From positions 62,001-126,000 of the forward strand of contig DATIYJ010000011.1 of assembly GCA_035517655.1 (NCBI GenBank): 64,000 bases of DNA. Reading direction: 5' to 3'. The notes below the pieces were generated by a model. The model saw only the letters and a program-made list of their open reading frames with translations, made no database searches and was not told the DNA's origin. Positions 30,781 through 48,136 of the stretch are shown in pieces (position 1 is the stretch's first letter; each line of letters begins with the position of its first letter). Source of the DNA: Nitrospiria bacterium. GTDB lineage: Bacteria > Nitrospirota > Nitrospiria > JACQBZ01. The position numbers and the translations under genes are program-made.

Positions 30781-30811
30781 TTGACAATCCATTTGAAATA
30801 TGACAGATTAT
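30781..30811 (+). promoter_or_regulatory. Possible promoter for the DUF11/TPR gene
   Basis: A perfect -35 TTGACA (30781-30786), with the same 12-base start as the pgsA promoter, followed at 19 bp by GATTAT (30806-30811). The -10 is poor, so this is tentative. If used, translation must start downstream of 30817. Confidence 0.35.
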
Positions 30812-30871
30812 CATTGGTTCAGGCCCCTCATGCGACCGAGACTCCATCTTATGACCCGTTGTCCTTGGACG

Positions 30872-32952: not shown

Positions 32953-34734
32953 ATGTATGAGAAGTTCTTCCAGTTTAACGAGCCGCCCTTCAATCTAACC
33001 CCCGACCCCCGATTTTTTTTCTTCAGCAAGGAACACGAAGAGGCCTTCGATCATATCCGCTACGGGATTGAGCAGCGGAAAGGATTCATTGTTGTGACGG
33101 GCGAGGTGGGAACGGGCAAGACCACGCTTTCCCGGCTGCTGCTGGAAAAACTGGACAAAAAAGTCCGGACATCGATGATCTTCAACCCCAGCCTCAACAC
33201 GATCGAACTGCTGCAGGCGGTCAACCAGGACTTCGGGATCTCCGAGGAGGGCCCGTCGAAGAAGGGTTTATTGATGAGGCTAAACCAGTTTCTCCTGAGT
33301 ACCTTGGCGGACGGGGGGAACGCCCTCCTGATCATTGACGAGGGCCAGAACCTCTCGATCGAGTGCCTGGAAGAGATTCGGATGCTTTCCAATCTGGAAA
33401 CCGAGAAGGAAAAACTGCTACAGATCCTTTTGCTCGGCCAGCCGGAACTACGAGAGATGCTTCGGCTCCCCGCGCTGCGCCAACTGAATCAACGTATCGC
33501 GATCCGATATCACATTGATCCGCTGGATTTGGAGGAAACGAAGACGTATGTGATGTATCGTCTGAAAATAGCGGGAGGCCAGGATCGCTTGTTCTTTACG
33601 CCCAAGGCGCTTAAAAAGATTTACCAGCACAGCGGCGGTATTCCCAGACTGATCAACGTTCTGTGCGATAAAGCGCTCCTGGCCGCGTACGCACGGGAAA
33701 GCCACGTGGTCGATGATGCGACCGTCCACCAGGCGGCTGCGGAGCTCGAAGGGCCGTCGTCAACCCCGGTTCGTCGAGACCTGCCGGTCGAGAAAACCGG
33801 CCGACGCCACCGCCCGATGGAAAAGAAACGCAAATCGGATACCCGTTGGTTCACGCCTATGGGAACAACCGTCATCGGCTTGTTGCTTGCCCTGCTTTCT
33901 GCTCTGGTGTGGGGAGTGCCGGTCTGGTTCAATCCCCACCCCTCCGTTATGAATGCGGCCTCGCCGAAATCTTCGATAGCCTCGAACTCGGTTCCAGACA
34001 TCCCGACCGAGGCCGTCAGGCCGCCGCCGGCGGCCGTGCTTCCACCGGCCGAGTCCGTCACATTGTCACCACGAGAAAACCGGGCCGGATGGTTTGACGA
34101 AAACGGTGTGTTTCGAGTGACCCGTCCTGAAGAGACGTACAAGGCAGCCTTATTGACGCTTCTGAAAATCTGGGGGACCCCCCAGAATCCTTCAGCCGAA
34201 GAATTCAAATCCTTAAATGCCGATCGGCTCATGTCCGCGAAAGGGTTTTCAACCCATCTCTTCACGGTCAACTTGAAACGGATCCGCCTACTTGATTACC
34301 CCTGCGTGATCCGTGGACATTGGGCCCATACCACGGCCACCACCTATGCGGTGCTAACCAATCTCACCAAGAAGGATGCGACGGTCTTGGATCCTTTGAG
34401 CGGGGAGATCACGGTCAGTCTGGACGTGTTAAAGGGGTTGTGGGGAGAGGAAGGGATGATCTACTGGAAACGGTTTCCCGGAATCGCTTTACCATTAATA
34501 AAAACGAAAACGGCGGATCCGTCTGTCAAAACGGTTCAGAAGGCCCTTAAGATCCAGGGACTGTATGTGGGAAAGACGGATGGGATAATGGGCATGAATA
34601 CCAAACGAGCCATTCGCTTTTTCAAGCAAAAATACGGCCTAAAGGATGATGGGGTTTTCGATCTCGAAAGTTACCTCGTTTTATCGAGAGTCATGTTCCG
34701 GGGAACGCCCGGACTTCAAGCAGGGAATCTATAG
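32953..34734 (+). CDS. gspA: GspA/ExeA-like ATPase with peptidoglycan-binding domain
   Basis: 593 residues. The cytoplasmic AAA domain (about 1-270) has Walker A GEVGTGKTT, Walker B ALLIIDEGQNLS and sensor-like GGIPRLINVLCDKALL. A single membrane helix follows (about 301-323). The periplasmic part begins with a Pro-rich linker, then a C39-like domain (about 410-510: DYPCVIRG, TYAVLTNL, ATVLDPLSG), and a peptidoglycan-binding domain (about 525-580: VQKALKIQGLYVGKTDGIMG). ExeA in Aeromonas uses ATP to help assemble the secretin through the wall; this is the likely role. No separate GspB gene is seen. Confidence 0.88.
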   Translation: MYEKFFQFNEPPFNLTPDPRFFFFSKEHEEAFDHIRYGIEQRKGFIVVTGEVGTGKTTLSRLLLEKLDKKVRTSMIFNPSLNTIELLQAVNQDFGISEEGPSKKGLLMRLNQFLLSTLADGGNALLIIDEGQNLSIECLEEIRMLSNLETEKEKLLQILLLGQPELREMLRLPALRQLNQRIAIRYHIDPLDLEETKTYVMYRLKIAGGQDRLFFTPKALKKIYQHSGGIPRLINVLCDKALLAAYARESHVVDDATVHQAAAELEGPSSTPVRRDLPVEKTGRRHRPMEKKRKSDTRWFTPMGTTVIGLLLALLSALVWGVPVWFNPHPSVMNAASPKSSIASNSVPDIPTEAVRPPPAAVLPPAESVTLSPRENRAGWFDENGVFRVTRPEETYKAALLTLLKIWGTPQNPSAEEFKSLNADRLMSAKGFSTHLFTVNLKRIRLLDYPCVIRGHWAHTTATTYAVLTNLTKKDATVLDPLSGEITVSLDVLKGLWGEEGMIYWKRFPGIALPLIKTKTADPSVKTVQKALKIQGLYVGKTDGIMGMNTKRAIRFFKQKYGLKDDGVFDLESYLVLSRVMFRGTPGLQAGNL

Positions 34735-34785: not shown

Positions 34786-34849
34786 TGAACAAGGTTAATG
34801 CGTTTACGTCAGCATACCGGCCAGGCTGATTATGGGGGGGAGATTCGCC

Positions 34850-35734
34850 ATGAGAAAATATCTTTGGACGTTGAATGTTCTATTTCTGTTGGGTTTTAGT
34901 TATTTTGTGGCCGATTTGGTGAGCCTGTTTATCGGTCGTCAACTGGATTTGCCGTCCCGCTCGCCCGTGGCGGAATGGGCCGCCACGACCGAGGCGCAGG
35001 TGAAACCGACAACAGAAGTTTACTCCTCCATTATCGACCGGAATATTTTTGGGATCAAACCGGCGGCGGCCATCGCAAGCCCTGCAGAAACGGCGCCTCA
35101 GGAGGTTCAATTGCCGCCGCTCCGACTCCGGTTGGTGGGAACGGTTGTGGGCGGCCCGGAAGAATCCTTCGCCGTCATTGAGGATCTCGGGACCAAGGAA
35201 CAAAGCCTTTATCATATCGAAGATATTGTTGGATCGGATGCCAAGCTGATCGAGGTGAGTCGTGATGAAGTGACGTTTTTACGCGGGAAGGTTCGGGAGA
35301 CCTTGGCGGTTGAGATGGAAGACACGCCGGGCCAAGCTGTGCCGGGCCGAACCTCCTCAAACCAACCCAACTCCGCGACGCCCCCCGTGACCCCCCGACC
35401 GGCCGGACCCCAGAACAGTTGGGTTCTGGACAAGCAGGAGGTGGCGTCCGCCTTGGAAAATCTGCCGCAGCTCTTGACCAAGGCGCGTGTGGTGCCGGAC
35501 CTAGGCCCCAATGGCCAAAGCGACGGATTCCGGATCGTCTCGATCTCTCCGTCGAGTTTTTATGAGCGGATCGGGTTGCGGAACGGAGATGTCATTCAGC
35601 AGATCAACGGGATCGAAGTCAAGGATCCCCAGACCTTTATGCAGGTTTTTACACAACTGAAAGATGAAACCAACATCACGATGGATCTGATGCGAAACAA
35701 CCAAAAAGAGTCGTTCACCTATGAAATTCGTTAG
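34850..35734 (+). CDS. gspC: T2SS inner-membrane protein GspC
   Basis: 294 residues from ATG 34850, which is 7 nt after GGGAG (34838-34842); an in-frame ATG at 34832 lies inside the G-rich run. One N-terminal membrane helix (about 5-25), the HR domain (SIIDRNIFGI, then LRLVGTVVGG, about 75-150), a Pro/Thr-rich linker and a C-terminal PDZ domain (about 205-290: ISPSSFYERIGLRNGDVIQQINGIEV). GspC links the platform to the GspD secretin. Confidence 0.92.
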   Translation: MRKYLWTLNVLFLLGFSYFVADLVSLFIGRQLDLPSRSPVAEWAATTEAQVKPTTEVYSSIIDRNIFGIKPAAAIASPAETAPQEVQLPPLRLRLVGTVVGGPEESFAVIEDLGTKEQSLYHIEDIVGSDAKLIEVSRDEVTFLRGKVRETLAVEMEDTPGQAVPGRTSSNQPNSATPPVTPRPAGPQNSWVLDKQEVASALENLPQLLTKARVVPDLGPNGQSDGFRIVSISPSSFYERIGLRNGDVIQQINGIEVKDPQTFMQVFTQLKDETNITMDLMRNNQKESFTYEIR

Positions 35735-37463
35735 AGGGACTCGGGTCGAGTTGCGGTCGCCCGGCCGCCGAAGACGAGTTCGAACATGTCAAATGCGGAA
35801 GCGCATGCCGATCTTGAAATGGATTTTTCTGATGTTCGGGGCGGTCCTGTCTTCCGGATTTCTTCTGCAGGCCGACGTTGCGGCCATTGCTCAGGCTCAG
35901 GAACCTTCCGAGACCCAACACCCCTTGCCGCTCCCGTCTACGGCACCGGAATCGCCCAAACAAAATCAAAAAGGGGGAGACGCAACCACTCCGGAAACGA
36001 CCGTGACCCCATCCCCTCCGTCTACATCCCCGACAGCGGAACCGCCGAGGCAAAATCCCCCCGCAACGTCTCCGATACCGGAACCGCCAAAATCGGCCAA
36101 GGAACGGCTCATCACGCTTGATTTCAACAACGTCGACCTTCCGGTTTTCGTGAAATTCGTCAGCGAAATGATCGGGAAAAATTTTATTATCGATGAACGG
36201 GTACGCGGAAAGGTGACGATCTTTTCACCCGCCAAGATTTCGGTCGATAAGGTCTACCCGGTCTTTCTGTCGGTCCTGGATATCAAGGGACTCGCGGCCG
36301 TTCCTGCCGGAGATGTCATTCAGATTCTCCCGGCGTCGGACGTCCCGCCGGAACGGGATATCAATGTTTACTATCTTGAAAACGCCAACGCGGAAGACAC
36401 CGCCAAGCTGCTGACCAGCATCGTGACCCGGACCGGCGCCCCGGCGCCGGCCGGGCGGCCGATCGTCAAAGCCACGGGCGAGTTCGAGGGAACCGTACAG
36501 ATTATTCCGGACAAGACGACGAACGCCTTGTTGATCACGGCCTCCCCCAAGGATTATGAGATGCTGAAAGAGGTGATCAAGAAACTCGATGTGCGTCGAC
36601 GTCAAGTCTATGTCGAGGCGGTCATCATGGAAGTCAGCCAGGACAAGCTGCGTCAATTGGGAACCCAGTTGGGCGCCGTGGGCGGTTACCAGTCGACCAA
36701 TCAAAAACTAACGGCCTACGGCGGTGCGAATGAAGATATTTCGGATCTGACGAGCCTCACGACCTTGGCCGGGACGGGAGGAGTGAACATCGGATTGAGC
36801 ACTGTGAATGTCAAGGTGCTTCTGAGCGCGTTGCAGAGCTCTTCGGATGTCAATACCCTGTCTACGCCGCAACTTCTGACAACCAACAATCAGAAAGCCA
36901 AGATCGTTGTGGCCCAGAATGTTCCGTTTATCACCGGGAACAATCAGACGGTGGGGGGGGTGACGCAAACACAGATCAGCCGTCAGGATGTCGGCGTAAC
37001 GCTGGAACTCACGCCGGAGATCCTGGAAGGCGATCGCGTCCGGATGGATGTCCGTCAGGAGATCTCCAGTTTAGCGGATACCCCGCAGGCGGTTCTGGTT
37101 CAACTGGGACCGACCACGAATAAGCGGGAGGCGACGACCACCGTCATCGTGTCCAACAATCAAACGGTCGTCATCGGGGGCTTGATGACGGATAATGTAA
37201 ATAAGTCGGAATCAAAGATCCCGCTACTTGGAGATATTCCCCTCATCGGCTGGCTGTTCAAATATGAGTCGAAACATCTGACCAAAACGAATCTCCTCAT
37301 CTTCCTCACCCCCCACCTCGTACATGAAAACGAGGATCTGGATGCGCTCCGGCAGCAAAAGAGCATCGATATGCAGCGGACGTTGGCCGAAGGAGACTTG
37401 AGGAACCAGACCCTGAGCGAACAATTTCTGAAAAGTATCAACCCTCCCCAGGGCAAGAGGTAG
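35721..37463 (+). CDS. gspD: T2SS outer-membrane secretin GspD (short form)
   Basis: 580 residues if the ATG at 35721 is used; ATGs at 35793 and 35805 give a better signal peptide (start of ILKWIFLMFGAVLSSG). A Pro/Thr-rich stretch (60-125) precedes an N0 domain (129-205), one N-domain most like N3 (213-298), then the secretin core (VYVEAVIMEVS to LIFLTPHLV, about 296-550) with the conserved VPFITG and PLLGDIPLIGWLF. Usual GspD has N0-N1-N2-N3; two N-domains seem absent. It forms the outer-membrane channel and overlaps gspC by 14 bp. Confidence 0.92.
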   Translation: MKFVRGTRVELRSPGRRRRVRTCQMRKRMPILKWIFLMFGAVLSSGFLLQADVAAIAQAQEPSETQHPLPLPSTAPESPKQNQKGGDATTPETTVTPSPPSTSPTAEPPRQNPPATSPIPEPPKSAKERLITLDFNNVDLPVFVKFVSEMIGKNFIIDERVRGKVTIFSPAKISVDKVYPVFLSVLDIKGLAAVPAGDVIQILPASDVPPERDINVYYLENANAEDTAKLLTSIVTRTGAPAPAGRPIVKATGEFEGTVQIIPDKTTNALLITASPKDYEMLKEVIKKLDVRRRQVYVEAVIMEVSQDKLRQLGTQLGAVGGYQSTNQKLTAYGGANEDISDLTSLTTLAGTGGVNIGLSTVNVKVLLSALQSSSDVNTLSTPQLLTTNNQKAKIVVAQNVPFITGNNQTVGGVTQTQISRQDVGVTLELTPEILEGDRVRMDVRQEISSLADTPQAVLVQLGPTTNKREATTTVIVSNNQTVVIGGLMTDNVNKSESKIPLLGDIPLIGWLFKYESKHLTKTNLLIFLTPHLVHENEDLDALRQQKSIDMQRTLAEGDLRNQTLSEQFLKSINPPQGKR

Positions 37464-37471
37464 TTCCGTCC

Positions 37472-39184
37472 ATGTCCAGCCCGTGGCAACGCATCGGTGA
37501 AATTCTTCAAGAGAAGTTTGCCGTCACGGCCGAACAGATCCGCGAGGCCCTGGCTCTTCAGCAGGAAAAGGGCGGGCTGCTCGGAGAGGTTTTGGTCCGG
37601 ATGCATGCGGTGAAGGAAGGCGAGGTGCTGGAGGCCCTGGGTCTTCAATTTCATCTTCCCTTCATCCCCGATATCCTTCCGACCCAGGTGGACCCCGTTT
37701 TTCTATCGAAAATCCCGATCGGGTTTGCAAAGCGGTACGAACTGCTTCCCCTTCGCGAGGAAAACGGCCGTGTGATGACGGCAACGGCCAATCCGCTCCA
37801 GCTCGCCGCGTTGGATGACGCCCGCGTTCTGCTGGGTTGCGACGTTCAGGTCGTCCTGTCGCCCGCCCGAGTGATACTAAGCTGCATCAATCAAGTCTAC
37901 GACCGTGCTTCCGATACGGCGCAACAGGTCATTGATGACCTGAGCACCGAGAACCTGGACCTGTTGGCCAGCGAGCTGCAGGAACCGGTCGATCTGCTGG
38001 AGGTTACGGACGAGGCGCCGATCATCCGGCTGGTGAACTCGACCATGTTTCAAGCCGTCAAAGACCGGGTGAGCGACATTCACATTGAGCCGTTTGAACG
38101 CGACCTCGAGATCCGGTACCGCATTGACGGGATCATGTACAAGATTCTGTCCCCCCCGAAGCGGTTTCAGTCCAGCATCATCTCCCGGATCAAGATCATG
38201 GCCGGAATGAACATCGCGGAGAAGCGTTTGCCCCAGGACGGACGGATCGGGATCAAGATCGCCGGCCGGGATATCGATATCCGTGCCTCGGTCATCCCGA
38301 CGGCCCACGGGGAGCGGGTTGTTCTGCGGCTTCTGGACAAAAGCACCAGTCTATTGAACCTTGAGGACATCGGTCTGACGAGGCAAGATCAAGAGACCAT
38401 GTTCCATCTGATTCAACTCAGTCATGGCATCGTGCTGGTCACGGGGCCGACCGGCAGCGGAAAGACGACGACGCTGTACGCGTCGTTGAACCGGATCAAT
38501 TCCCCGGACAAGAATATCATCACGATCGAAGATCCCATCGAATACCAGCTCAAGGGAATCGGGCAAATGCAGGTCAACCCCAAGATCAACCTGACATTCG
38601 CCAACGGCCTCCGCTCCATCCTCCGGCAGGACCCAGACGTGATCATGGTGGGGGAGATCCGGGACGCCGAGACGGCGGAGATCGCGATACATGCTTCCCT
38701 AACCGGCCACCTGGTTTTTTCAACCCTGCACACCAACGATACGGCCGGCGCCATCACGCGGCTCATTGACATGGGGATCGAGCCCTTTTTGGTCGCATCC
38801 TCCGTGATTGCGATCCTCGCCCAGCGGTTGGTGAGGTTGCTCTGCCCCGATTGTCGGCAAGCCTACTCGCCCACATCGCAGGAGTTGTCCAAATTGGGTT
38901 TCAAGGCGGGCGCATCGCCGCCGTCCTTTTACCGCGCGGTGGGTTGCGGCCTTTGTAAACGGACCGGGTATCACGGGCGGACCGGAATTTACGAGATTCT
39001 TCTCATCGATGACGAGATCCGTCAGATGATTTTGAGCAAGGTCGATTCCAACCGGATTAAGAACCGCGCGGTCGAAAAGGGCATGAGAACGCTCCGGGAC
39101 GACGGCGCGCGAAAGGTGCTGGACGGCGTCACGACGGTGGAAGAGGTCTTGCGGGTCACGCAGGAAGAACTGGTGATGGAGTAA
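37472..39184 (+). CDS. gspE: T2SS assembly ATPase GspE
   Basis: 570 residues. An N-terminal MshEN-like domain (EILQEKFAVTAEQIREALAL, then VLVRMHAVKEGEV) is followed by the GspE/PulE core with Walker A GPTGSGKTTT near 326, RQDPDVIMVGEIRD, and a zinc site from CPDC and CGLC. It powers pseudopilus growth at the inner membrane. It lies 8 bp after gspD and 6 bp before gspF. It is nearly the same length as PilB, its paralogue in this window. Confidence 0.94.
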   Translation: MSSPWQRIGEILQEKFAVTAEQIREALALQQEKGGLLGEVLVRMHAVKEGEVLEALGLQFHLPFIPDILPTQVDPVFLSKIPIGFAKRYELLPLREENGRVMTATANPLQLAALDDARVLLGCDVQVVLSPARVILSCINQVYDRASDTAQQVIDDLSTENLDLLASELQEPVDLLEVTDEAPIIRLVNSTMFQAVKDRVSDIHIEPFERDLEIRYRIDGIMYKILSPPKRFQSSIISRIKIMAGMNIAEKRLPQDGRIGIKIAGRDIDIRASVIPTAHGERVVLRLLDKSTSLLNLEDIGLTRQDQETMFHLIQLSHGIVLVTGPTGSGKTTTLYASLNRINSPDKNIITIEDPIEYQLKGIGQMQVNPKINLTFANGLRSILRQDPDVIMVGEIRDAETAEIAIHASLTGHLVFSTLHTNDTAGAITRLIDMGIEPFLVASSVIAILAQRLVRLLCPDCRQAYSPTSQELSKLGFKAGASPPSFYRAVGCGLCKRTGYHGRTGIYEILLIDDEIRQMILSKVDSNRIKNRAVEKGMRTLRDDGARKVLDGVTTVEEVLRVTQEELVME

Positions 39185-39190
39185 CGCGCG

Positions 39191-40453
39191 ATGGCGGTAT
39201 ACGAGTACAAGGGCCTGACGACCGAAGGCCGGGATATCTCCGGCATCATTGACGCGGACAGCCCAAAGACCGCGCGGGCCAAGCTACGGCAGTCGGGCAT
39301 TTATCCCACCGATGTCGTGGAGGGGGCAGGCGAAGCGTCGTACGGCTCCGATTCCGCCGCTTCATCGGGTCATCCGGACCGTTCCCTTTCGTGGCTGTCG
39401 CGCATCCGGGTGGCGGAACGGGTTGGAAGCATGGAGGTGTCCCTCATGACCCGCCATCTGGCCACGTTGACCGGGGCGAAGCTTCCGTTGATGGAGGCCC
39501 TTTCGGCCCTGATGGATCAACTGGAAAAGGGAGAGTTAAAGCGGGTCGTGGCGGGCGTTCGCGAACGGGTCAAGGAAGGCAGTTCTCTGGCGACGGCGCT
39601 TGCCCAATACCCGTCCGCGTTCTCGGAGATTTACATCAATATGGTGCGGGCGGGCGAGGCGAGCGGCACTCTGGATGGCATGCTTCTCCGATTGGCGGAT
39701 TATCTTGAACACCAGGTCAAGCTTCGCAATCAGCTCGTTTCAACGCTGACCTATCCTATCTTCATGGTGGTCATCGGCGGATTGATCTTGCTGGGATTGG
39801 TGACGTTTGTGGTTCCCAAGATCACGCTGATTTTTGAGGAAGTGAATCAGGTCCTGCCGTTACCGACGGTGATTCTCATCGCGGTCAGCCATTTCCTGAA
39901 CGACTACTGGTGGCTCATTTTGTTGGCCGTTGTCGTTGGAATATTTGCCCTGCAGCAATACATCAGGACGCCCGCGGGCCGGATCCAGTATGATCGCTTC
40001 GTGTTGCGGGTCCCGATTATGGGCCGGGTGACCCTGATGGTGGCGATTTCGCGTTTTACGCGGACGCTCAGCACCTTGCTCAGCGGCGGCGTACCCCTGC
40101 TCCAGGCTCTCGACGTGGTCCGAAACGTCGTTCAGAACAATGTGCTGGCCGAGGCGATCGATCGGGCCCGACAAAACATCGGGGAGGGCCAGAGCTTGGC
40201 CGAACCGTTGAAAAAGAGCGGAATGTTTCCTCCGCTCGTGACGCACATGATCGCTGTCGGTGAGAAAAGCGGCGAACTGGAGCCGATGTTGGTCAAGGTC
40301 TCGGAGGCTTACGACAACGAGGTGGAAGCCATCATCAGCACGCTGACGTCCCTGATGACCCCGGTCATGATTCTGGTGATGGGGGCGATCATCGGATTTA
40401 TCGTGATGGCGATTCTTCTCCCGATATTTGAACTCAGCCAAATTGTGAGGTAA
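39191..40453 (+). CDS. gspF: T2SS inner-membrane platform protein GspF
   Basis: 420 residues with two T2SF domains (about 80-205 and 285-410) and membrane helices such as IFMVVIGGLILLGLVTFVV and MILVMGAIIGFIVMAIL. The N-terminus (AVYEYKGLTTEGRDISGIID) is the standard GspF start with a GID-like motif. It is the polytopic platform for GspE. Six bp after gspE. Confidence 0.94.
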   Translation: MAVYEYKGLTTEGRDISGIIDADSPKTARAKLRQSGIYPTDVVEGAGEASYGSDSAASSGHPDRSLSWLSRIRVAERVGSMEVSLMTRHLATLTGAKLPLMEALSALMDQLEKGELKRVVAGVRERVKEGSSLATALAQYPSAFSEIYINMVRAGEASGTLDGMLLRLADYLEHQVKLRNQLVSTLTYPIFMVVIGGLILLGLVTFVVPKITLIFEEVNQVLPLPTVILIAVSHFLNDYWWLILLAVVVGIFALQQYIRTPAGRIQYDRFVLRVPIMGRVTLMVAISRFTRTLSTLLSGGVPLLQALDVVRNVVQNNVLAEAIDRARQNIGEGQSLAEPLKKSGMFPPLVTHMIAVGEKSGELEPMLVKVSEAYDNEVEAIISTLTSLMTPVMILVMGAIIGFIVMAILLPIFELSQIVR

Positions 40454-40458
40454 AAGTA

Positions 40459-40962
40459 ATGGATCACGCTGTTCGAAACGCCGCGGACCGGAGGTGCATG
40501 AACCGCCGTACTCCCGCTTTGACGGTTCCGGAGAGTTTTTCGCGTCAATCTGGATTTACATTGATTGAGATCATGGTGGTTGTGTTCATCTTGGCGCTGC
40601 TAGCCGGAATCGTCGTGCCAAAAATCATGGGCCGGACGGATGAGGCCCGTCGGACCGCGGCCAAAGTCCAAGTCAAGAACATCGAAGAAGGGTTGCATCT
40701 GTACAAACTGGACAACGGTGTTTATCCCACCACGGAGCAGGGCCTCTCGGCTCTGGTGACGAAGCCCTCGATCGGCTCGATCCCGCCGCATTGGCGGGAA
40801 GGCGGCTATCTGCCCAAGCTACCCAAAGATCCCTGGAGCCATGATTACGTCTATATCAGTCCGGGCTCCCACGGGGATTATGACTTGATGAGCTACGGGG
40901 CGGACGGCGAGCAGGGCGGAGAAGGGAAAGACGCCGATGTGGAAAGCTGGGATATCGAATAG
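40459..40962 (+). CDS. gspG: T2SS major pseudopilin GspG
   Basis: 167 residues. The type III signal is unusually long (32 residues): prepilin peptidase should cut after Gly32, exposing FTLIEIMVVV with Glu at +5. An ATG at 40498 would shorten the leader to 19 residues. The globular part has the GspG features YKLDNGVYPTTEQGLSALV, KDPWSHDYVY and YGADGEQGGEGKDAD, the last part being the calcium-binding loop. It forms the bulk of the pseudopilus. Confidence 0.95.
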   Translation: MDHAVRNAADRRCMNRRTPALTVPESFSRQSGFTLIEIMVVVFILALLAGIVVPKIMGRTDEARRTAAKVQVKNIEEGLHLYKLDNGVYPTTEQGLSALVTKPSIGSIPPHWREGGYLPKLPKDPWSHDYVYISPGSHGDYDLMSYGADGEQGGEGKDADVESWDIE

Positions 40963-41488
40963 ACGGGGCCTGCCTGTCCGGCAGGCAGGCTTCACGTATC
41001 TCGAACTGGCCGTGGTGATGCTGATCCTCGGCGTGGTTGTGGCCCTGGCTTTTCCGACCATCCACAACTTCGGCTCCAGCGCCTTGAAACAGTCGGCCCG
41101 TCATCTGGTCCGGACCGTCTATTTTCTGACCGATCGGGCCGCGGCTACCAAACAGATCTATCGTCTGAATTTCGACCTGGACCGCCGGGAGTACTGGGTG
41201 ACCGTCCAGTCCGGGGAAGGCGAGTTTGTCCGGGCGGACTCCGACATCGTGACGCGCACAAGCCTGCCGGAAACGGTTCGGTTTGCGGATGTAGACACCC
41301 TGCATCAGGGTAAATTGACGCTGGGCGTGGCCTACATGGATTTTTTTCCCGTGGGGCGCGTGGATAAGACGACGGTGCATTTAACCGATGAGCAGAAGGA
41401 CAACTTGACGCTCGTCGTCAACCCGGTTACGGGACGGGTCAAGGTATATGAAGGGTATCAGGAAGAGACGACCAAATCGACCTTCTGA
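40937..41488 (+). CDS. gspH: T2SS minor pseudopilin GspH
   Basis: 183 residues, overlapping gspG by 26 bp. Cleavage is expected after Gly18 (RQAG), giving FTYLELAVVML with Glu at +5. The globular part is GspH/FimT-like (SARHLVRTVYFLTDRAAATKQIYRL). The leader GLPVRQAG is encoded by a 23-bp palindromic element (40968-40990), which is odd for a coding region. Confidence 0.88.
   Translation: MWKAGISNRRGLPVRQAGFTYLELAVVMLILGVVVALAFPTIHNFGSSALKQSARHLVRTVYFLTDRAAATKQIYRLNFDLDRREYWVTVQSGEGEFVRADSDIVTRTSLPETVRFADVDTLHQGKLTLGVAYMDFFPVGRVDKTTVHLTDEQKDNLTLVVNPVTGRVKVYEGYQEETTKSTF
40968..40990. repeat. 23-bp palindromic element inside gspH
   Basis: GCCTGCCTG, five bases, CAGGCAGGC: perfect 9-bp arms. 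It encodes GLPVRQAG, the residues just before the prepilin cleavage site. This type of palindrome is dispersed in many environmental bacterial genomes; no second copy was noticed in the window. Confidence 0.75.
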
Positions 41489-41858
41489 TCGATCGACCCA
41501 GAAGGGGTTCACGCTTTTGGAAGTGGTCGTCGCCCTTTCCATTCTGGCCGTGACCTTTGTGGTCCTCTTGGGACTCCGGAACCGTGACATCCTTCAGCAT
41601 CTGGAGGCCCGATACTTGACCCGTGCCACGTTGCTGGCCCAGAAAAAGATCTCGGAAGTGGAGATGGCAGGTTTCCCTCCGCTCGGCATTATGGCCGGCG
41701 ATTTTCCCCAGCCGGACGATATGTTCCATTGGACCCAGACAGTCGGTACCACCCCGTTGGATTTTGCCCGGGAAGTTACAATGGAGGTGGCCTGGCGGGA
41801 GGGCGAGCATTCGCAATCGGTCGTTTTGGTCACTTTTGTGATGGATGAACAATCGTGA
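41448..41858 (+). CDS. gspI: T2SS minor pseudopilin GspI
   Basis: 136 residues, overlapping gspH by 41 bp. Cleavage is expected after Gly20 (TQKG), exposing FTLLEVVVALSILAV with Glu at +5. The C-terminal part (ATLLAQKKISEVEMAGFP, then REVTMEVAWREG) matches GspI. With GspJ and GspK it forms the pseudopilus tip complex. Confidence 0.92.
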   Translation: MKGIRKRRPNRPSDRSTQKGFTLLEVVVALSILAVTFVVLLGLRNRDILQHLEARYLTRATLLAQKKISEVEMAGFPPLGIMAGDFPQPDDMFHWTQTVGTTPLDFAREVTMEVAWREGEHSQSVVLVTFVMDEQS

Positions 41859-42514
41859 GGAGAGGACACTGGAATGACCCGCGGGGGTTCACGCTCCTGG
41901 AACTGCTGGTTGCGCTGGGAATTGTCGCGATCGTTGTGACGCTTCTGTATGAGACCTTTAATGCCGTGCTCAGGTCCACGAAGGAGGTGGATGCGGAGAG
42001 CGAAATCGATCAGATGGTCCGGATCAGCATGGAAAGAATGACGAACGAACTGCGGTCGGCGTATTGGCGCCCCTCATCCGGGACCGGCGGGCCGACGGTG
42101 TTTATGTTCGTCGGCCAGGACAGTTCCGACAGCGATCAGCCCGCGGATACGCTTCAGTTTACGACGCTTTCCTACGCCCGCGTCGGCGAGGGGAGCGCCG
42201 ATCCGACCGTCACGGTCGTGGAGTATGCATTGGTTCCGGACCCGGAAACTCAGACGAGCGTTCTGATGCACCGGGAGGAGACCGTCCCGCTCGAGCCATC
42301 GGAGAACAGTCTTGAAGAATATGAACTGGCCGAATCGGTGATCGGATTGAATTTTCGGTATTTTGATGGACAGAATTGGTTGGATCAATGGAGCGATGCG
42401 GATAAAAAGAGATTGCCGAAGGCGGTCGAGATTCAGCTCATTATCAAAGATTACTCCGGTCAGGAACGTCAGTTCATTACACAAACCGATATCCCTATCG
42501 GCCAGGCATCATGA
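41855..42514 (+). CDS. gspJ: T2SS minor pseudopilin GspJ
   Basis: 219 residues, GTG start overlapping the gspI stop by 4 bp (GTGA). Cleavage is expected after Gly11 (DPRG), giving FTLLELLVALGIVAI with Glu at +5. The downstream pattern (MERMTNELRSAYWRP, SLEEYELAESVIGLNFRYFDG) is typical GspJ. It is part of the tip complex. Confidence 0.92.
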   Translation: MRRGHWNDPRGFTLLELLVALGIVAIVVTLLYETFNAVLRSTKEVDAESEIDQMVRISMERMTNELRSAYWRPSSGTGGPTVFMFVGQDSSDSDQPADTLQFTTLSYARVGEGSADPTVTVVEYALVPDPETQTSVLMHREETVPLEPSENSLEEYELAESVIGLNFRYFDGQNWLDQWSDADKKRLPKAVEIQLIIKDYSGQERQFITQTDIPIGQAS

Positions 42515-43566
42515 CTCTTAGGAGGCGGCTCCAATGGGTGAGTCGGCATCGGGCCGGATTGATCACGACCATCGGGTACGCCACCGCCGCCGTGATCACG
42601 ATCACGGTTTTTGTCTATCTGACGTTCCCCTGGCAGAAACTTTCGGAGTGGATCCGGATCAAGATCGAACGGGCCACGGATCTTCAGGTTTCGGTTCAGA
42701 ACAGTCGTGTTCGGTTTCCGTTCCTTCTGGTCTGGGATGGAGTTGAGATAAGTCGGGCGGGACATCCTGCTCCGGTCTTGATGGCGGTGGATCGGATATC
42801 GGTCGGCTGGCCGATCGGCGCGATCCTTCGGCGACATATCGATCTGGACCTGGCGGTCCGGGCCTGGGGAGGAGAAGCCCACGGCCGTTTAACGGCTCGC
42901 CGGGCGCCCCAGGGAATGCAATACCGCCTGGAAGCGAGCGGCAAGGGTTTTCAGCTCGGAAAGTTGGCCGCCGTGTTTCAACTTCCATCCGAGGGCGTGG
43001 TTGGTACGGTTCGGATCAATCGGTTTGAGCATGATTGGATGAATCAGGACTGGATGCAAGGGCAAGGCGTCTTGTCGTTGGAGGCGGCGGAGGTGGAACT
43101 TAAACAGTGGGAAATCCGTTTCAAGCGTCTGAACGGAAATGTGACCTTGAAAGCCGGAATGAGCAACCTGGAAAACTTTTCCGTTCAGGGAGAGGCCCTG
43201 GATCTGGTGGGCAGCGGAAGCCTCCTGCTCCGGGCGGATTTTATGGAAAGCCTGTTGAACTTTAACTCGCGCGTATCGTTACACAAGCCGAGCGGGCCGC
43301 TTACATTGTTGTCTACACTGGCCTCTCCCGACGGCCGCTTGGATTTTGCGCTTCGGGGGCCTTTGAAACAACCGATTCCGTATATAAACGGAGCTCCGTT
43401 TCCGGCGCTTGGTGCAGGCGGTTCCAGTCTGCCCGCGGGAACCGACCGGAAGGTTAAATCGATACCTCCGTCCACGATGGCTCCGGCTCGTCCCGGTTTG
43501 TCTTCCGCACCCGGACCCTTCCCGCAGCCGCCTGTCCGACCAAACGTTCAGGGAGACCGTAATTGA
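42511..43566 (+). CDS. gspN: T2SS protein GspN
   Basis: 351 residues, overlapping gspJ by 4 bp (ATGA). One N-terminal membrane helix (about 17-38) precedes an AsmA-like beta-rich periplasmic region (IKIERATDLQVSVQNSRVRFP, LEASGKGFQLGKLA), ending in the GspN-type LRGPLKQPIPYING segment and a disordered Pro-rich tail. GspN is dispensable in some systems; in lineages like this one it is a standard member of the operon. Exact role unknown. Confidence 0.82.
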   Translation: MTLRRRLQWVSRHRAGLITTIGYATAAVITITVFVYLTFPWQKLSEWIRIKIERATDLQVSVQNSRVRFPFLLVWDGVEISRAGHPAPVLMAVDRISVGWPIGAILRRHIDLDLAVRAWGGEAHGRLTARRAPQGMQYRLEASGKGFQLGKLAAVFQLPSEGVVGTVRINRFEHDWMNQDWMQGQGVLSLEAAEVELKQWEIRFKRLNGNVTLKAGMSNLENFSVQGEALDLVGSGSLLLRADFMESLLNFNSRVSLHKPSGPLTLLSTLASPDGRLDFALRGPLKQPIPYINGAPFPALGAGGSSLPAGTDRKVKSIPPSTMAPARPGLSSAPGPFPQPPVRPNVQGDRN

Positions 43567-45185
43567 TGAACTTTCGTCTGACACAGCCCATTCTGGGTCT
43601 TGATCTCGGATCTTCTTGCGTCAAAGCGGTTTCTCTACGAAAAAAACTGACGGGTCTGGAATGGGCCGGAGCGTATCAGAGAGATTGGTCCAGGACACAA
43701 GACCTCTTTGAATGGGCCAAGGAGCCGTTTTCAGGATTGAAGGAATGGCTTGCGGAGCATCGGTTGGCAACCGACCGCGTGGTGGTTTCGGTGCCCCTCC
43801 ATCTGATCTCGCTGAGAACCCTGACCCTTCCCTTTCAGGACGCCCGGAAACTCGAAAAGGTGGTTCCATTTGAGATCGAAGCCCTTCTTCCCTATTCGCT
43901 GGAAGAGGTGGTGGTGGACTATCAGGTCATGGACATCGGGGACGGCAAGTCCCATCTCTTGGTGGCGGCCGTTCCACGCAGTCTGATGAAAAATTATCTG
44001 GACCAGCTGATCCGGGTCGGTGTTGATCCGGAATCGGTGGAATTGGACGGCATGGCCCTCGCGAATCTTGCGCGCCACGCGTTTCCCGAACCGCCCGGCG
44101 AAGGAGATCGCGCGAGCGACGATACGGCCGTCTTGGATATCGGGGCATCGAAGACGGTAGTCTGCATCCTGCGACGGGGACAGCCCTGTTTTCTGCGGAC
44201 CCTTTTGTGGGGAGGCCGGAATGCGACGGCGGCCCTGTCGGAGGGGTGCGGGATTTCTCCGGCCGAGGCCGAGGAATGGAAGCGACAGGCCGGTTTGATG
44301 GATGACGGGATTCCGCACCTTCACCAGAAAGGGGTATCCAAGATCATCGGTCAGTCGCTGGATACGCTGGTGTCGGAATTGGTCCGGACCTTCCATGGTT
44401 ACCAGGGGCAGGAACCGACGGCGGACCGGGCTACCGTAACCGAACTGGTCCTTTACGGCGGAGGGAGCAAGCTCAAAGGTCTGGAGTCCTATCTCGGATC
44501 CGAACTGGGGGTGCGCACTTCCACCCACACGCCCAAGATCGCTTCGAACAACGGAAACCGATGGGATCCGGCCTTGGCCATGAGTTTGGGACTGGCGCTG
44601 AAAGGAACCCAAACCGCCGACGGGTCGCGGATGAACTTTCGCAAGGGCGAGTTTGCGTACGGTCAAGAGACCTCGGTATCGGCGACCCGCGCGCGCTACG
44701 TTTGGATCGGGGCCTTTCTCGTGGCGGCCGTCGCGGCCACGGATCTCTACATGAAGTACAACATTCAAGTCAACAAGTATCAGGGACTGAAGACCCAAGT
44801 CCGAGAGGAATTCCATGCCATGTTCCCGGAAGTTAAGAATGTGGTGGATGAAGTTCAGCAGGCGAAGACGGCCGTTACCGAGATGAGGAAGAAATCGGCT
44901 CTGTTTGGACTGGATGATTGGTCCCCGTTGCAGCTGATGGCCGAACTGACCCGGCGGATCCCTCCCTCGGTCAAGATCGAGGTTCAGGATTTTGTAATCG
45001 AGCCGGGGCGACTTCGGCTGGAGGCCGAGACGGATAGCTTCGAGTCGGTGGATAAGATCAAGGCGTCGCTGGGGCAATTCGAGGCGTTTAAGGACGTGAC
45101 GGTCAGCGACGCGAAGGTCAGCGCCGATCAATCCCGCGTGCGCTTCCGTTTGACGATGACCGTGGCGCCGAAAGGAGCGGGATGA
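43566..45185 (+). CDS. gspL: T2SS inner-membrane protein GspL (PilM-like cytoplasmic domain)
   Basis: 539 residues from ATG 43566; its first base is the last base of the gspN stop. The cytoplasmic actin-like/PilM-like domain (about 1-350) has ILGLDLGSSCVKAV, the LDIGASKTVV phosphate loop and LVLYGGGSKLKG. A membrane helix at about 377-395 and a ferredoxin-like periplasmic domain (about 400-539) follow. GspL couples GspE to the membrane platform with GspM. Confidence 0.9.
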   Translation: MNFRLTQPILGLDLGSSCVKAVSLRKKLTGLEWAGAYQRDWSRTQDLFEWAKEPFSGLKEWLAEHRLATDRVVVSVPLHLISLRTLTLPFQDARKLEKVVPFEIEALLPYSLEEVVVDYQVMDIGDGKSHLLVAAVPRSLMKNYLDQLIRVGVDPESVELDGMALANLARHAFPEPPGEGDRASDDTAVLDIGASKTVVCILRRGQPCFLRTLLWGGRNATAALSEGCGISPAEAEEWKRQAGLMDDGIPHLHQKGVSKIIGQSLDTLVSELVRTFHGYQGQEPTADRATVTELVLYGGGSKLKGLESYLGSELGVRTSTHTPKIASNNGNRWDPALAMSLGLALKGTQTADGSRMNFRKGEFAYGQETSVSATRARYVWIGAFLVAAVAATDLYMKYNIQVNKYQGLKTQVREEFHAMFPEVKNVVDEVQQAKTAVTEMRKKSALFGLDDWSPLQLMAELTRRIPPSVKIEVQDFVIEPGRLRLEAETDSFESVDKIKASLGQFEAFKDVTVSDAKVSADQSRVRFRLTMTVAPKGAG

Positions 45186-45769
45186 ACGCTTTTTTCCGGG
45201 CGGATTTTGTTCGGCAACTTCTGGCGCGCCTTCGACGCGACCGGATCACATCCCGCGAGCGGATCTATATCATCATCGGCGGCGTGACCCTGGTCGGGCT
45301 CCTCCTCTACGGACTTTATTCCGCGGCCACTTCTTACCTCGATCGGACGAAAGAAATCGACCGGCTGATCCGTCAGAAGGAAGAAGCTCTGACCACGCTG
45401 GATCAATTTCGTCGGGAATATGTCCAGATCAAAGGCCAAGTCGGTGCTCTGGATGAACGGATCGGAAAGGACCAGGGGAATTTTTCACTTCTGTCGTTTC
45501 TCGAGTCTCTGGCCGGGACGACCGATGTCCGGTCAAAGATCGCCTACATGCGGCCCCAGGCGGCCGTGCCGGTGGACCAGTACCGGGAGACGTCGGTCGA
45601 GATGAAGATCGAGAATGTCACGTTGGATCAGGCTGTGCGGTTTCTCTCGGCGATCGAACAGGCCCCGCATGTCCTGAAGATCAAGAACCTCCATTTTAAG
45701 ACGCGTTACGCCGATCCCCAATTTTTAGATGTGACCTTCCTCGTCAGCACCTATGAGAAATCCGGCTGA
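45182..45769 (+). CDS. gspM: T2SS inner-membrane protein GspM (PilO-like)
   Basis: 195 residues, overlapping gspL by 4 bp (ATGA). A short cytoplasmic N-terminus, one membrane helix (about 35-55), a coiled coil and a ferredoxin-like domain (about 105-190) fit GspM/PilO. It partners GspL. The gsp transcript on this strand is then interrupted by an opposite-strand gene before gspK. Confidence 0.85.
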   Translation: MNAFFRADFVRQLLARLRRDRITSRERIYIIIGGVTLVGLLLYGLYSAATSYLDRTKEIDRLIRQKEEALTTLDQFRREYVQIKGQVGALDERIGKDQGNFSLLSFLESLAGTTDVRSKIAYMRPQAAVPVDQYRETSVEMKIENVTLDQAVRFLSAIEQAPHVLKIKNLHFKTRYADPQFLDVTFLVSTYEKSG

Positions 45770-45774
45770 ACGGG

Positions 45775-46674
45775 CTAGGGACCGGCGGCGTCGATGCTTG
45801 GGTAGACGGGATAGAAATGAGAGTTGGGCTGGTTTGCATCCAACCGGCCGTCCGTGAAGCGGTCGAAGCGGGTGTTCTGCGGGGCCGTGGCGTCTGTTTC
45901 GTCATAGAAGAACATGCCGCCCGCGTGAACGGTCAGGGTCAGGGCAAAGATGCCTTTCGGGCTGTCCGGGATCGTGAAGAACTTGGGAAGGTCGATTGTG
46001 ATGAGGGAATTGTAGTCGTGAAGGGGGAATCGGGCTGCAGGGACCTGCAGAGGGACGGTGGGCCGAGTCGCCGCGAGCGGCACGTAAGTTCCATCGCTCG
46101 TGTCGATCCAGCTGAACTGTGGGTTGTCCGTCACATTGCCGACCAGGACGTCGCCCGCATCGACCGGAACCCCGAGAGTCGGATCGGTGAGATCGAGCGT
46201 ATAAAAGCGAAAGCGCCGATTAACAGGGGCGCCGTTTTCATACACCGGGATCTGAATCTCGAAATAGGTCAGTTCGACCTGCACTTGGCTGAAGTCGCAG
46301 GGACAAGCGCTTGGATAGACGGAGTTCACATCGGCGGATTGGGGCGTCGTGGTCAGATTAAGGACGATGGGCGCAGTGGTGCTCTGGGTATCGAAGACGG
46401 TGTACGATGGAGAGGTTTCACCCGGCTTGATTAACTGAACGCTCTTCACCCCGACCGTGACCGTTGAATTGTTGGGACTAATAAATCTGTCGGGCCAGCT
46501 GTCGTTGTCGCCGCTGGGGTCGGAATTCCCGAAATCGGCCACAACCAACGCCTCGACCCCTTGGTTTTTTTTCCCGCCGCAGGCCGTGAGCAGAAGCGGA
46601 AGAAAAAAAAATCCCAGAGCCCAAACAAATCCGGGGGCCGGCAGGAGATTTCTAATGGAGAAGAATAAACTCAT
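45775..46674 (-). CDS. Unknown lipoprotein encoded inside the gsp cluster
   Basis: 299 residues from ATG 46674 (an in-frame ATG at 46686 is possible). The signal ends in lipobox LTAC followed by GGKK. The mature part looks beta-rich, starting with a Ser/Asp-rich stretch (GNSDPSGDNDSWPD); it contains a CPC pair and ends NSHFYPVYPS. I do not recognise the family. It lies 5 bp from the end of gspM and its start is about 21 bp from that of gspK, on the opposite strand. A lipoprotein here could be a secretin pilotin or a T2SS substrate, but no sequence evidence shows this. The same frame runs on to 47265 under gspK; that extension is rejected. Confidence 0.75.
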   Translation of the reverse strand: MSLFFSIRNLLPAPGFVWALGFFFLPLLLTACGGKKNQGVEALVVADFGNSDPSGDNDSWPDRFISPNNSTVTVGVKSVQLIKPGETSPSYTVFDTQSTTAPIVLNLTTTPQSADVNSVYPSACPCDFSQVQVELTYFEIQIPVYENGAPVNRRFRFYTLDLTDPTLGVPVDAGDVLVGNVTDNPQFSWIDTSDGTYVPLAATRPTVPLQVPAARFPLHDYNSLITIDLPKFFTIPDSPKGIFALTLTVHAGGMFFYDETDATAPQNTRFDRFTDGRLDANQPNSHFYPVYPSIDAAGP

Positions 46675-46695
46675 CCCGGAAACCATTTTAGCAGA

Positions 46696-47688
46696 ATGGT
46701 CGTCGGATTGAAAATGAAAAGTCGGGCGGTCGTGAATATGGGAAACCGTAAGCTGCCGGGTGATGAACGGGGCGTCGCGCTGCTTCTGACCCTGGTGATC
46801 CTGGTATTGCTCACGGCGATCATCGTGGAATTCGATTACGGCGCCAAAGTGAATTTGATTACGGCCGCCAATTTCCGGGATGAGGTGCAGGCGGTCTATC
46901 TGGCGAAATCGGGCGTGGCCGCGGCCCGCGCGGTGTTGAAGGATGACGCCCTGCACCACGGAGCGTATGACGCCTTGACCGAGTTCTGGGCCCAACCCAT
47001 CCCTCCTTATCCCGTGGGTGACGGGTTTGTCTCGGTCGAGATCGCGGATGAGGCCGGCAAAATCGATATCAACCGTCTGGGGAATAATCGTAGTCAAGCA
47101 AGAGACGACGCCGCCTATATGTTGAAAAGGCTGTTGAGGGTGTTGGAAGTTGATCCCGGGGTGATCGATCCGATTGTCGAGGCGATCAAGAATTGGGTGG
47201 ATCCGGACGCCGCGCACGACTGCCTGGACGAGTTTTATTATCAACAACAGAATCCGCCGTATCATTGCAAAAAGGGTCTGATGGATACACTTTCGGAGTT
47301 GCTTTTAGTGAAGGGGGTCACGCCGGAGATCTACAAGAAAATCCGGCCCTATGTGACGACGGTCTCATCCCCATCCCGTCCAATCAATGTCAACACGGCC
47401 GGCCTGCCGGTTCTGGAGGCACTGGATGATAATATCGACCCGGAAACCGCGGCCTGCATCCAGGATCGTCGACCGTATGAAAACAGCTCGATGTCCGATT
47501 TTTTCGGTTGTGCGGTTGCCACTCCATGCAAGGATCCGTCTTCGGTCTGTTCCAGGCAGATCGGGGTTCAGAGCAGTTACTTCTCGGTGAAATCGAGCGG
47601 AAAGATGTATGATACGGAGAAGGTCATTACGGCCATGATTCAGAGGCAAGGAAGCAAGGCAAACCTTGTTTCATGGCAGATCGAATAA
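46696..47688 (+). CDS. gspK: T2SS minor pseudopilin GspK
   Basis: 330 residues from ATG 46696; ATG 46714 and 46738 are possible. The leader ends DERG, with cleavage before VALLLTLVILVLL; Glu at +5 is absent (Leu), as is usual for GspK. The large globular domain has KIDINRLG, the helix-hairpin-helix-like IKNWVDPDAAHD, NVNTAGLPVLEALDD and YFSVKSSGKM. GspK caps the pseudopilus tip with GspI and GspJ. It is separated from gspM by the opposite-strand lipoprotein gene and may need its own promoter. Confidence 0.92.
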   Translation: MVVGLKMKSRAVVNMGNRKLPGDERGVALLLTLVILVLLTAIIVEFDYGAKVNLITAANFRDEVQAVYLAKSGVAAARAVLKDDALHHGAYDALTEFWAQPIPPYPVGDGFVSVEIADEAGKIDINRLGNNRSQARDDAAYMLKRLLRVLEVDPGVIDPIVEAIKNWVDPDAAHDCLDEFYYQQQNPPYHCKKGLMDTLSELLLVKGVTPEIYKKIRPYVTTVSSPSRPINVNTAGLPVLEALDDNIDPETAACIQDRRPYENSSMSDFFGCAVATPCKDPSSVCSRQIGVQSSYFSVKSSGKMYDTEKVITAMIQRQGSKANLVSWQIE

Positions 47689-47716: not shown

Positions 47717-48136
47717 TCACTCCGTCTGGACCGATTTGATACTGTACTTGATCCTTCCCTCAAGCCACCGGTCCGGACAGTTTTTTGTGTCCTGGATGAA
47801 GTTGCCGATCTCCTGCGGATTCACGGGCCGCAGCTCGCCCTTCGGGTTTCCGGGAACGATGACGCGAAGCGGCAGCGTCAGATCTTCCTGAGTCAGATCC
47901 TTTCCTTTCGAGTCCAGCATCTCAAGATGAAGCGTAAAGCTTTTAATAGGTTGACTTCCGGTGTTTTTGATTTCGCCAAACACCTCGCAAACAACCGCGT
48001 TCCGCTGGAAGTCTTGATAGCGGTGCGCATGGACGGCAAGGGGAGTGATCGGCATTGGCACTTTCGCGGGTTGGGCCGGCCGATTCCATAAGACAAGACT
48101 GAAGAACGTGACAACAAGAATTAGACGGAAACGCAT
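47717..48136 (-). CDS. Exported FxLYD-like domain protein
   Basis: 139 residues. A signal peptide (RLILVVTFFSLVLW) is followed by a small beta-sandwich: VVCEVFGEIKNTGSQPIKSF and LHLEMLDSKGKDL resemble the FxLYD domain. These are periplasmic or surface proteins of unknown role. It is convergent with gspK, 28 bp apart. Confidence 0.65.
   Translation of the reverse strand: MRFRLILVVTFFSLVLWNRPAQPAKVPMPITPLAVHAHRYQDFQRNAVVCEVFGEIKNTGSQPIKSFTLHLEMLDSKGKDLTQEDLTLPLRVIVPGNPKGELRPVNPQEIGNFIQDTKNCPDRWLEGRIKYSIKSVQTE

Follow-up and report, generated by a model that had tools for sequence, protein, structure and literature searches.

The locus described here raises a simple question: why should a lipoprotein gene lie on the opposite strand inside a type II secretion system (T2SS) operon, and does its product serve that system? 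The window, i.e. the whole 64,000 nt stretch of Nitrospiria DNA that was analysed, carries this gene at nt 45775–46674 (minus strand; 299 aa, stop codon TAG). It is convergent with gspM (nt 45182–45769, plus strand; Pfam PilO/T2SSM), and it separates gspC–M from gspK (nt 46696–47688, plus strand; Pfam T2SSK), which encodes the minor pseudopilin of the pseudopilus tip. The spacing is tight on both sides: the stop codon begins at nt 45775, leaving a 5 bp gap after the end of gspM (nt 45769), and 21 bp lie between the ATG of the lipoprotein gene (nt 46674) and that of gspK (nt 46696). The antisense position between gspM and gspK, and the distance of about 21 bp to the gspK start, both given in an earlier note on this DNA, are confirmed by these coordinates. 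The upstream part of the operon (gspC, D, E, F, G, H, I, J, N-like and L; nt 34832–45185) is all on the plus strand, as the earlier note had it for gspC to gspM, with the correction that a gspN-like ORF of 351 aa (nt 42511–43566, plus strand), which has no Pfam match, is located between gspJ and gspL. Pfam matches support gspC (T2SSC and PDZ), gspD (N0 and secretin domains), gspL, gspM and gspK; gspE–J, which follow in order on the plus strand from gspD to gspL, were named by sequence and by matching across relatives. Upstream of gspC is a gspA/exeA-like gene (nt 32953–34734, plus strand; AAA_22, C39-like and PG_binding_1), a candidate secretin-assembly ATPase. Two other ORFs border the cluster. 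A 704 aa protein with TPR and DUF11 repeats, possibly envelope-associated, is encoded upstream (nt 30800–32914, plus strand), and a 139 aa protein with a signal peptide and no Pfam match is encoded antisense directly after gspK (nt 47717–48136, minus strand) and is kept at 81–86% identity in two congeners (L014, L018).

Residues 1–32 of the lipoprotein (nt 46579–46674, minus strand) form a signal peptide and lipobox, LLTA-C32-G (LLLTAC with glycine at +2), in which a hydrophobic stretch precedes the cysteine and cleavage is predicted before Cys32. The Cys-Gly of the lipobox is invariant in all 12 family sequences. That the ORF codes for a protein is certain, because the frame is kept in 12 genomes at identities falling to 25% and its dN/dS values (0.17–0.42) indicate purifying selection. 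A 496 aa ORF of the same frame (to nt 47265) was rejected as an antisense run-on through gspK, as homologues begin at the position of nt 46674; the next in-frame ATG upstream of this falls within the conserved -10 element described below. The protein has no match in Pfam (E≤10), NCBIfam, PHROGs or PDB sequences. Marginal matches of individual members, to DUF7537 (E 0.058) and to the SrpA, LptM and invert_tail models (E 0.001–0.03), were taken as matches to the lipobox and set aside. The window therefore holds the founding member of an unnamed lipoprotein family, in an arrangement that is apparently undescribed.

The gene was found in 12 Nitrospiria genomes belonging to three families: f1, that of the window (6 of 7 genomes), f9 (5 of 6) and f7 (a single genome). 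Candidatus Manganitrophus is among the carriers (GAC4 record, f9). Protein identity is 25–33% across the three families. In all inspectable carrier loci, the gene lies antisense between gspM and gspK, and no copy occurs elsewhere in the searched genomes, so that the expectation of homologues always being placed there, and never away from a T2SS, was borne out in all 12 carriers. A first scan of genome contigs gave no match; a single degenerate pattern run against 84,980 species recovered six loci, all in Nitrospiria/Nitrospirae MAGs of this same set, and no homologue was found on the plasmids and viral contigs scanned. A profile search over 246 genomes of the phylum added one further match (G346), but this covers only profile positions 4–50, that is, the signal peptide and lipobox, and was dismissed as spurious. 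In the single f7 genome (G012; L024:213–1811), the homologue is dissimilar after about residue 270 and belongs to a much longer frame, suggesting a frameshift from assembly error or decay.

Of the 197 genomes of the class, 119 have a detected gspM and 133 a detected gspK, as against 12 with the lipoprotein gene. The f9 genome that is without it (G044) also has no detectable gspM or gspK, and the f1 genome that is without it (G003) is considered below. In the 19 non-carrier loci inspected, gspM directly adjoins gspK or is parted from it by a short gap, which in one locus reaches up to about 140–215 bp. That gap (L048; G008, family f3) contains GTAACAGGA, which resembles the promoter region of carriers and is possibly the remnant of a lost gene. 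Judged by genomic context, the gene is T2SS-dedicated but accessory, because it is always flanked by gspM and gspK, yet most T2SSs of the class are without it.

Since the gene occupies the same place wherever it is found, the probable product is a surface protein which the T2SS either exports or works with. The reading we tentatively prefer is that it is an accessory, T2SS-dedicated outer membrane lipoprotein that the adjacent T2SS exports to the cell surface or displays there, as a candidate cargo or cargo-like partner. Two features of T2SS-exported lipoproteins are seen, namely a Sec signal peptide with lipobox, and a gene located at the T2SS in 12 of 12 carriers. In the proposed route the protein would be acylated, then sorted by the Lol system on account of its +2 glycine (a rule which, like Lol sorting itself, is extrapolated from proteobacteria), and then moved to the surface by the adjacent T2SS. 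Exclusive linkage, the lipobox, a beta-rich fold and the pattern of divergence (below) all fit this reading, which is accordingly the one favoured here.

The predicted structure is consistent between families. AlphaFold2 models of the f1 protein (pLDDT 79, pTM 0.77) and of the f9 protein (pLDDT 74, pTM 0.77) are both all-beta apart from the signal helix, and have an identical strand order. With neither model did Foldseek find anything in PDB at E≤0.001, and the f1 model gave nothing significant against viral models. Thus the fold of the protein alone has no confident match to an unrelated family, and because, in addition, the searches gave no homologue away from a T2SS, the connection to the T2SS is strongly supported. 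A possible distant similarity to DUF4382 (PF14321), a domain of uncharacterised bacterial and archaeal proteins, was suspected from the strand pattern and lies over residues 70–137 (nt 46264–46467, minus strand), where strand order and motif positions seem to be shared. In hhalign, a profile of 15 DUF4382 domains from related genomes scored 30.6 (probability 25%, E 8e-4 for a single comparison, 64 columns); this was reached by none of 300 block-shuffled controls (best 28.0) and by none in a set of 60, likewise block-shuffled, and the unrelated GspM and GspK profiles scored 18–21. The DUF4382 relatives in these genomes, which were identified by their domain, also start with lipobox-like sequences. 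In contrast to them, the C-terminal half of the lipoprotein has no alignment and all members are below Pfam detection; because Pfam calls DUF4382 in none of the 12, the family is kept out of it. Taken together, the models and the profile comparison are suggestive of an all-beta sandwich, the core of which distantly resembles DUF4382.

A different role for a T2SS-linked lipoprotein would be that of a periplasmic accessory or assembly factor rather than cargo, whether as a new kind of pilotin or by clamping the secretin or the tip of the pseudopilus. The exclusive linkage to the T2SS, a start adjoining that of gspK and an outer membrane type of lipoprotein are all compatible with this, and pilotins already differ in fold, AspS being unrelated to PulS-OutS (PMC3542185). 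With these the protein shares its lipoprotein nature and its T2SS link. The pilotin domains, PulS/OutS (PF09691) and AspS, are small, and helical (PulS) or alpha/beta (AspS), whereas the protein described here has about 267 aa when mature and is predicted to be all-beta; the remark of the earlier note that it is larger than known pilotins and has no recognised domain thus stands. No member of the family (0 of 12) has a Pfam match to a pilotin family such as PF09691. A pilotin would bind the GspD S-domain and carry it to the outer membrane, and the type of S-domain should go with the pilotin that is present; yet the C-terminal tail of GspD is the same in the genome lacking the gene (G003) as in carriers of its family (G001, G002, G004 and G005), and other non-carrier families have similar GspD endings. 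Furthermore, GspA is the archetype of an alternative to the pilotin, as partner of GspB in other bacteria (PMC9239104), and by analogy the GspA/ExeA-like gene upstream of gspC suggests secretin assembly of the GspA type. A pilotin role is unlikely, given the size of the protein, its all-beta fold, its absence from most relatives, the unchanged GspD tail where it is missing and the presence of a GspA homologue. The broader proposal of a periplasmic factor also faces the limited distribution (12 genomes, against gspM in 119 of 197) and an evolution that is faster than that of the T2SS machine genes and, unlike theirs, involves recombination; we consider it unlikely. Of the two roles suggested in the earlier note, pilotin or substrate, the former is thereby disfavoured; the latter, in the form of a substrate or surface partner, is favoured by the divergence described below.

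A position so constant might also reflect nothing but inheritance, with a generic outer membrane lipoprotein hitchhiking by descent and having no functional link to the T2SS. The small number of carriers is in keeping with this. However, no copy was found outside a T2SS in the searched genomes, and one exact position is kept over three families as divergent as 25–33% identity, while gspM and gspK are contiguous in most relatives. Simple hitchhiking is therefore unlikely. As to how the gene came to be distributed as it is, a T2SS tree (GspE, F, G, L, M and K; FastTree only, with weak deep nodes) does not unite the three groups of carriers in one clade. A simple history of three gains was considered for this reason, but it is less fitting because lipoprotein identity declines together with that of gspM, gspL and gspN (Pearson 0.94–0.96 over pairwise distances, a value largely driven by group structure) and because position and promoter are the same. 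Ancient presence followed by repeated loss, or transfer of the gene together with the flanking gsp genes, would fit better, and both accommodate the sequence comparisons. In G003, the gspM stop codon is followed by GCGGGATTGTAACAGAGTTATG, and a -10 element is left directly before gspK. This has the appearance of a scar, as would be expected from a clean deletion of the gene; alternatively, it may be an older promoter that predates the lipoprotein gene.

The lipoprotein gene is a sharply bounded divergence hotspot. Between G050 and G042 (L019 and L021), the lipoproteins share 63% amino acid identity (dS 0.65), in contrast to 99% for gspM (dS 0.20), 98% for gspK (dS 0.14) and 87–99% for all other gsp genes (dS 0.12–0.41). 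At the DNA level, identity between these two drops from about 90–98% to 55–86% within tens of bp of where the gene starts and stops, and rises again outside it. The window and G002 (L018) differ similarly (lipoprotein 52%, dS 1.56, against dS 0.41–0.93 for the neighbours), as do G001 and G002 (L014 and L018; 56%, dS 2.0, against 0.27–0.86), so that clear excess divergence is seen in three species pairs, each represented by single genomes that are mostly MAGs. The confinement of the jump to one gene points to allele replacement, and the high dS is better explained by replacement with a divergent allele than by faster protein evolution alone. The G002 allele is basal to all other f1 alleles, while the T2SS of G002 groups with its own genus; this discordance could possibly be due to long-branch attraction. 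In G005, the assembly breaks within the lipoprotein gene and there are two slightly differing 5' copies, one on each of two contigs (L016:1–1094 and L025:11137–11397), compatible with strain variation. Local divergence of this kind is typical of surface-exposed proteins and so favours an exported lipoprotein, although relaxed constraint, or recombination unrelated to surface exposure, can also produce rapid divergence. If the protein is exported, exposure to phages, grazers or competitors would drive the repeated replacement of alleles. The same pattern, confined as it is to the gene, together with the patchy presence, probable loss and close linkage to the tip-pseudopilin gene, could instead be read as that of an immunity-like or decoy surface lipoprotein, directed at a phage or rival whose receptor is the secretin or the tip of the pseudopilus, and placed within the T2SS operon for co-regulation; as the scanned viral sequences held no homologue and the partner or phage is itself hypothetical, this seems a long shot.

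The predicted promoter region is conserved among carriers. On the lipoprotein strand of the window, an extended -10 sequence match, TGC-TAAAAT (nt 46685–46693, minus strand), lies 10 nt before the ATG, preceded by a -35-like hexamer, TTTTCA (nt 46709–46714, minus strand), which is inside the gspK start region and weak on its own. A promoter scan gave 9 of 12 consensus matches for the -35/-10 pair, with TG before the second hexamer. The extended -10, TGNTANNNT, is on the lipoprotein strand in 12 of 12 carriers and ends 6–10 nt before the ATG; the element reads TGCTAAAAT in the window, TGTTACAAT or TGCTACAAT in the other f1 genomes, and TGGTATACT or TGCTATACT in f9 and f7. It occurs in about 2% of shuffled upstream sequences, and the 12 matches are not 12 independent events because the sequences represent three lineages. 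The element is kept in G003 and is missing from all 18 of the remaining non-carrier loci that were tested. At the usual spacing from a -10, transcription would start 0–4 nt before the ATG, giving a leaderless or near-leaderless mRNA. The supposition of the earlier note that the promoters of the lipoprotein gene and gspK must overlap found no support, as the lipoprotein strand alone yielded a promoter-like site: the consensus scan found none on the plus strand before gspK in the window, and among relatives there is one weak site in L014 and none in L022. Similarly, a bidirectional -10 of the Warman type was sought, and the window scan finds only the lipoprotein-strand site; a GTATAC palindrome is present in some f9 genomes.

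Between gspM and the lipoprotein gene there is no convincing terminator, and the number of terminator-like sites found (3) does not exceed what shuffled sequences give (mean 1.7, sd 1.2). Given neither a plus-strand promoter nor a convincing terminator, gspK may thus need read-through across the antisense gene, in the layout of a noncontiguous operon. The lipoprotein would be made from its own promoter, and gspK from the gspC–M transcript read through the antisense gene; the two transcripts would overlap, and could therefore interfere with each other. Reciprocal control has been shown for noncontiguous operons (PMC7154746). That regulation at the RNA level is the primary function, the antisense mRNA tuning gspK against gspC–M with the protein secondary, agrees with such control, with the fully antisense arrangement, the 5 and 21 bp gaps and the conserved promoter, but is very improbable for a protein under purifying selection (dN/dS 0.17–0.42) that keeps invariant residues across 25% identity. 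Returning to the preferred reading of an exported or displayed lipoprotein, a more speculative extension, which we regard as doubtful, is that the antisense slot before gspK is a cassette for swapping alleles of a surface lipoprotein, in which the flanks and the near-leaderless promoter are conserved, alleles would be exchanged under pressure from phages or competitors, and the antisense mRNA would couple expression of the lipoprotein to gspK.

Among the Nitrospiria are bacteria of groundwater and oxidisers of nitrite and of manganese. Literature searched on T2SS and lipoproteins in Nitrospirota, and on secretion in Manganitrophus, yielded passing mentions only, and T2SS function in Nitrospiria is essentially undescribed there. 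The present family provides a dedicated candidate substrate or partner for the T2SS of this class. The locus is also a conserved natural case in which a secretion operon harbours an opposed gene, whose start is predicted to be leaderless. In environmental bacteria, the local divergence hotspot may be the mark of a receptor or antigen at the surface.

Among known systems, PulA of Klebsiella and SslE of E. coli, although much larger than the 299 aa protein, are also lipoproteins encoded at their own T2SS. They differ in that the gene described here lies not beside the operon but within it, flanked by gspM and gspK, and in the lack of Pfam or NCBIfam similarity. PulA is exported by its T2SS (PMC7857515), and by analogy export is plausible here. 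As regards gene layout, the noncontiguous operon menE-menC-MW1733-ytkD-MW1731 of S. aureus likewise contains an opposed gene inside one operon, here without a convincing terminator; in the present case the resemblance is one of anatomy, seen in the window and 11 other genomes. The lipoprotein family is new and its setting of a known kind; the layout with an opposed gene is conserved, and the divergence hotspot is sharp.
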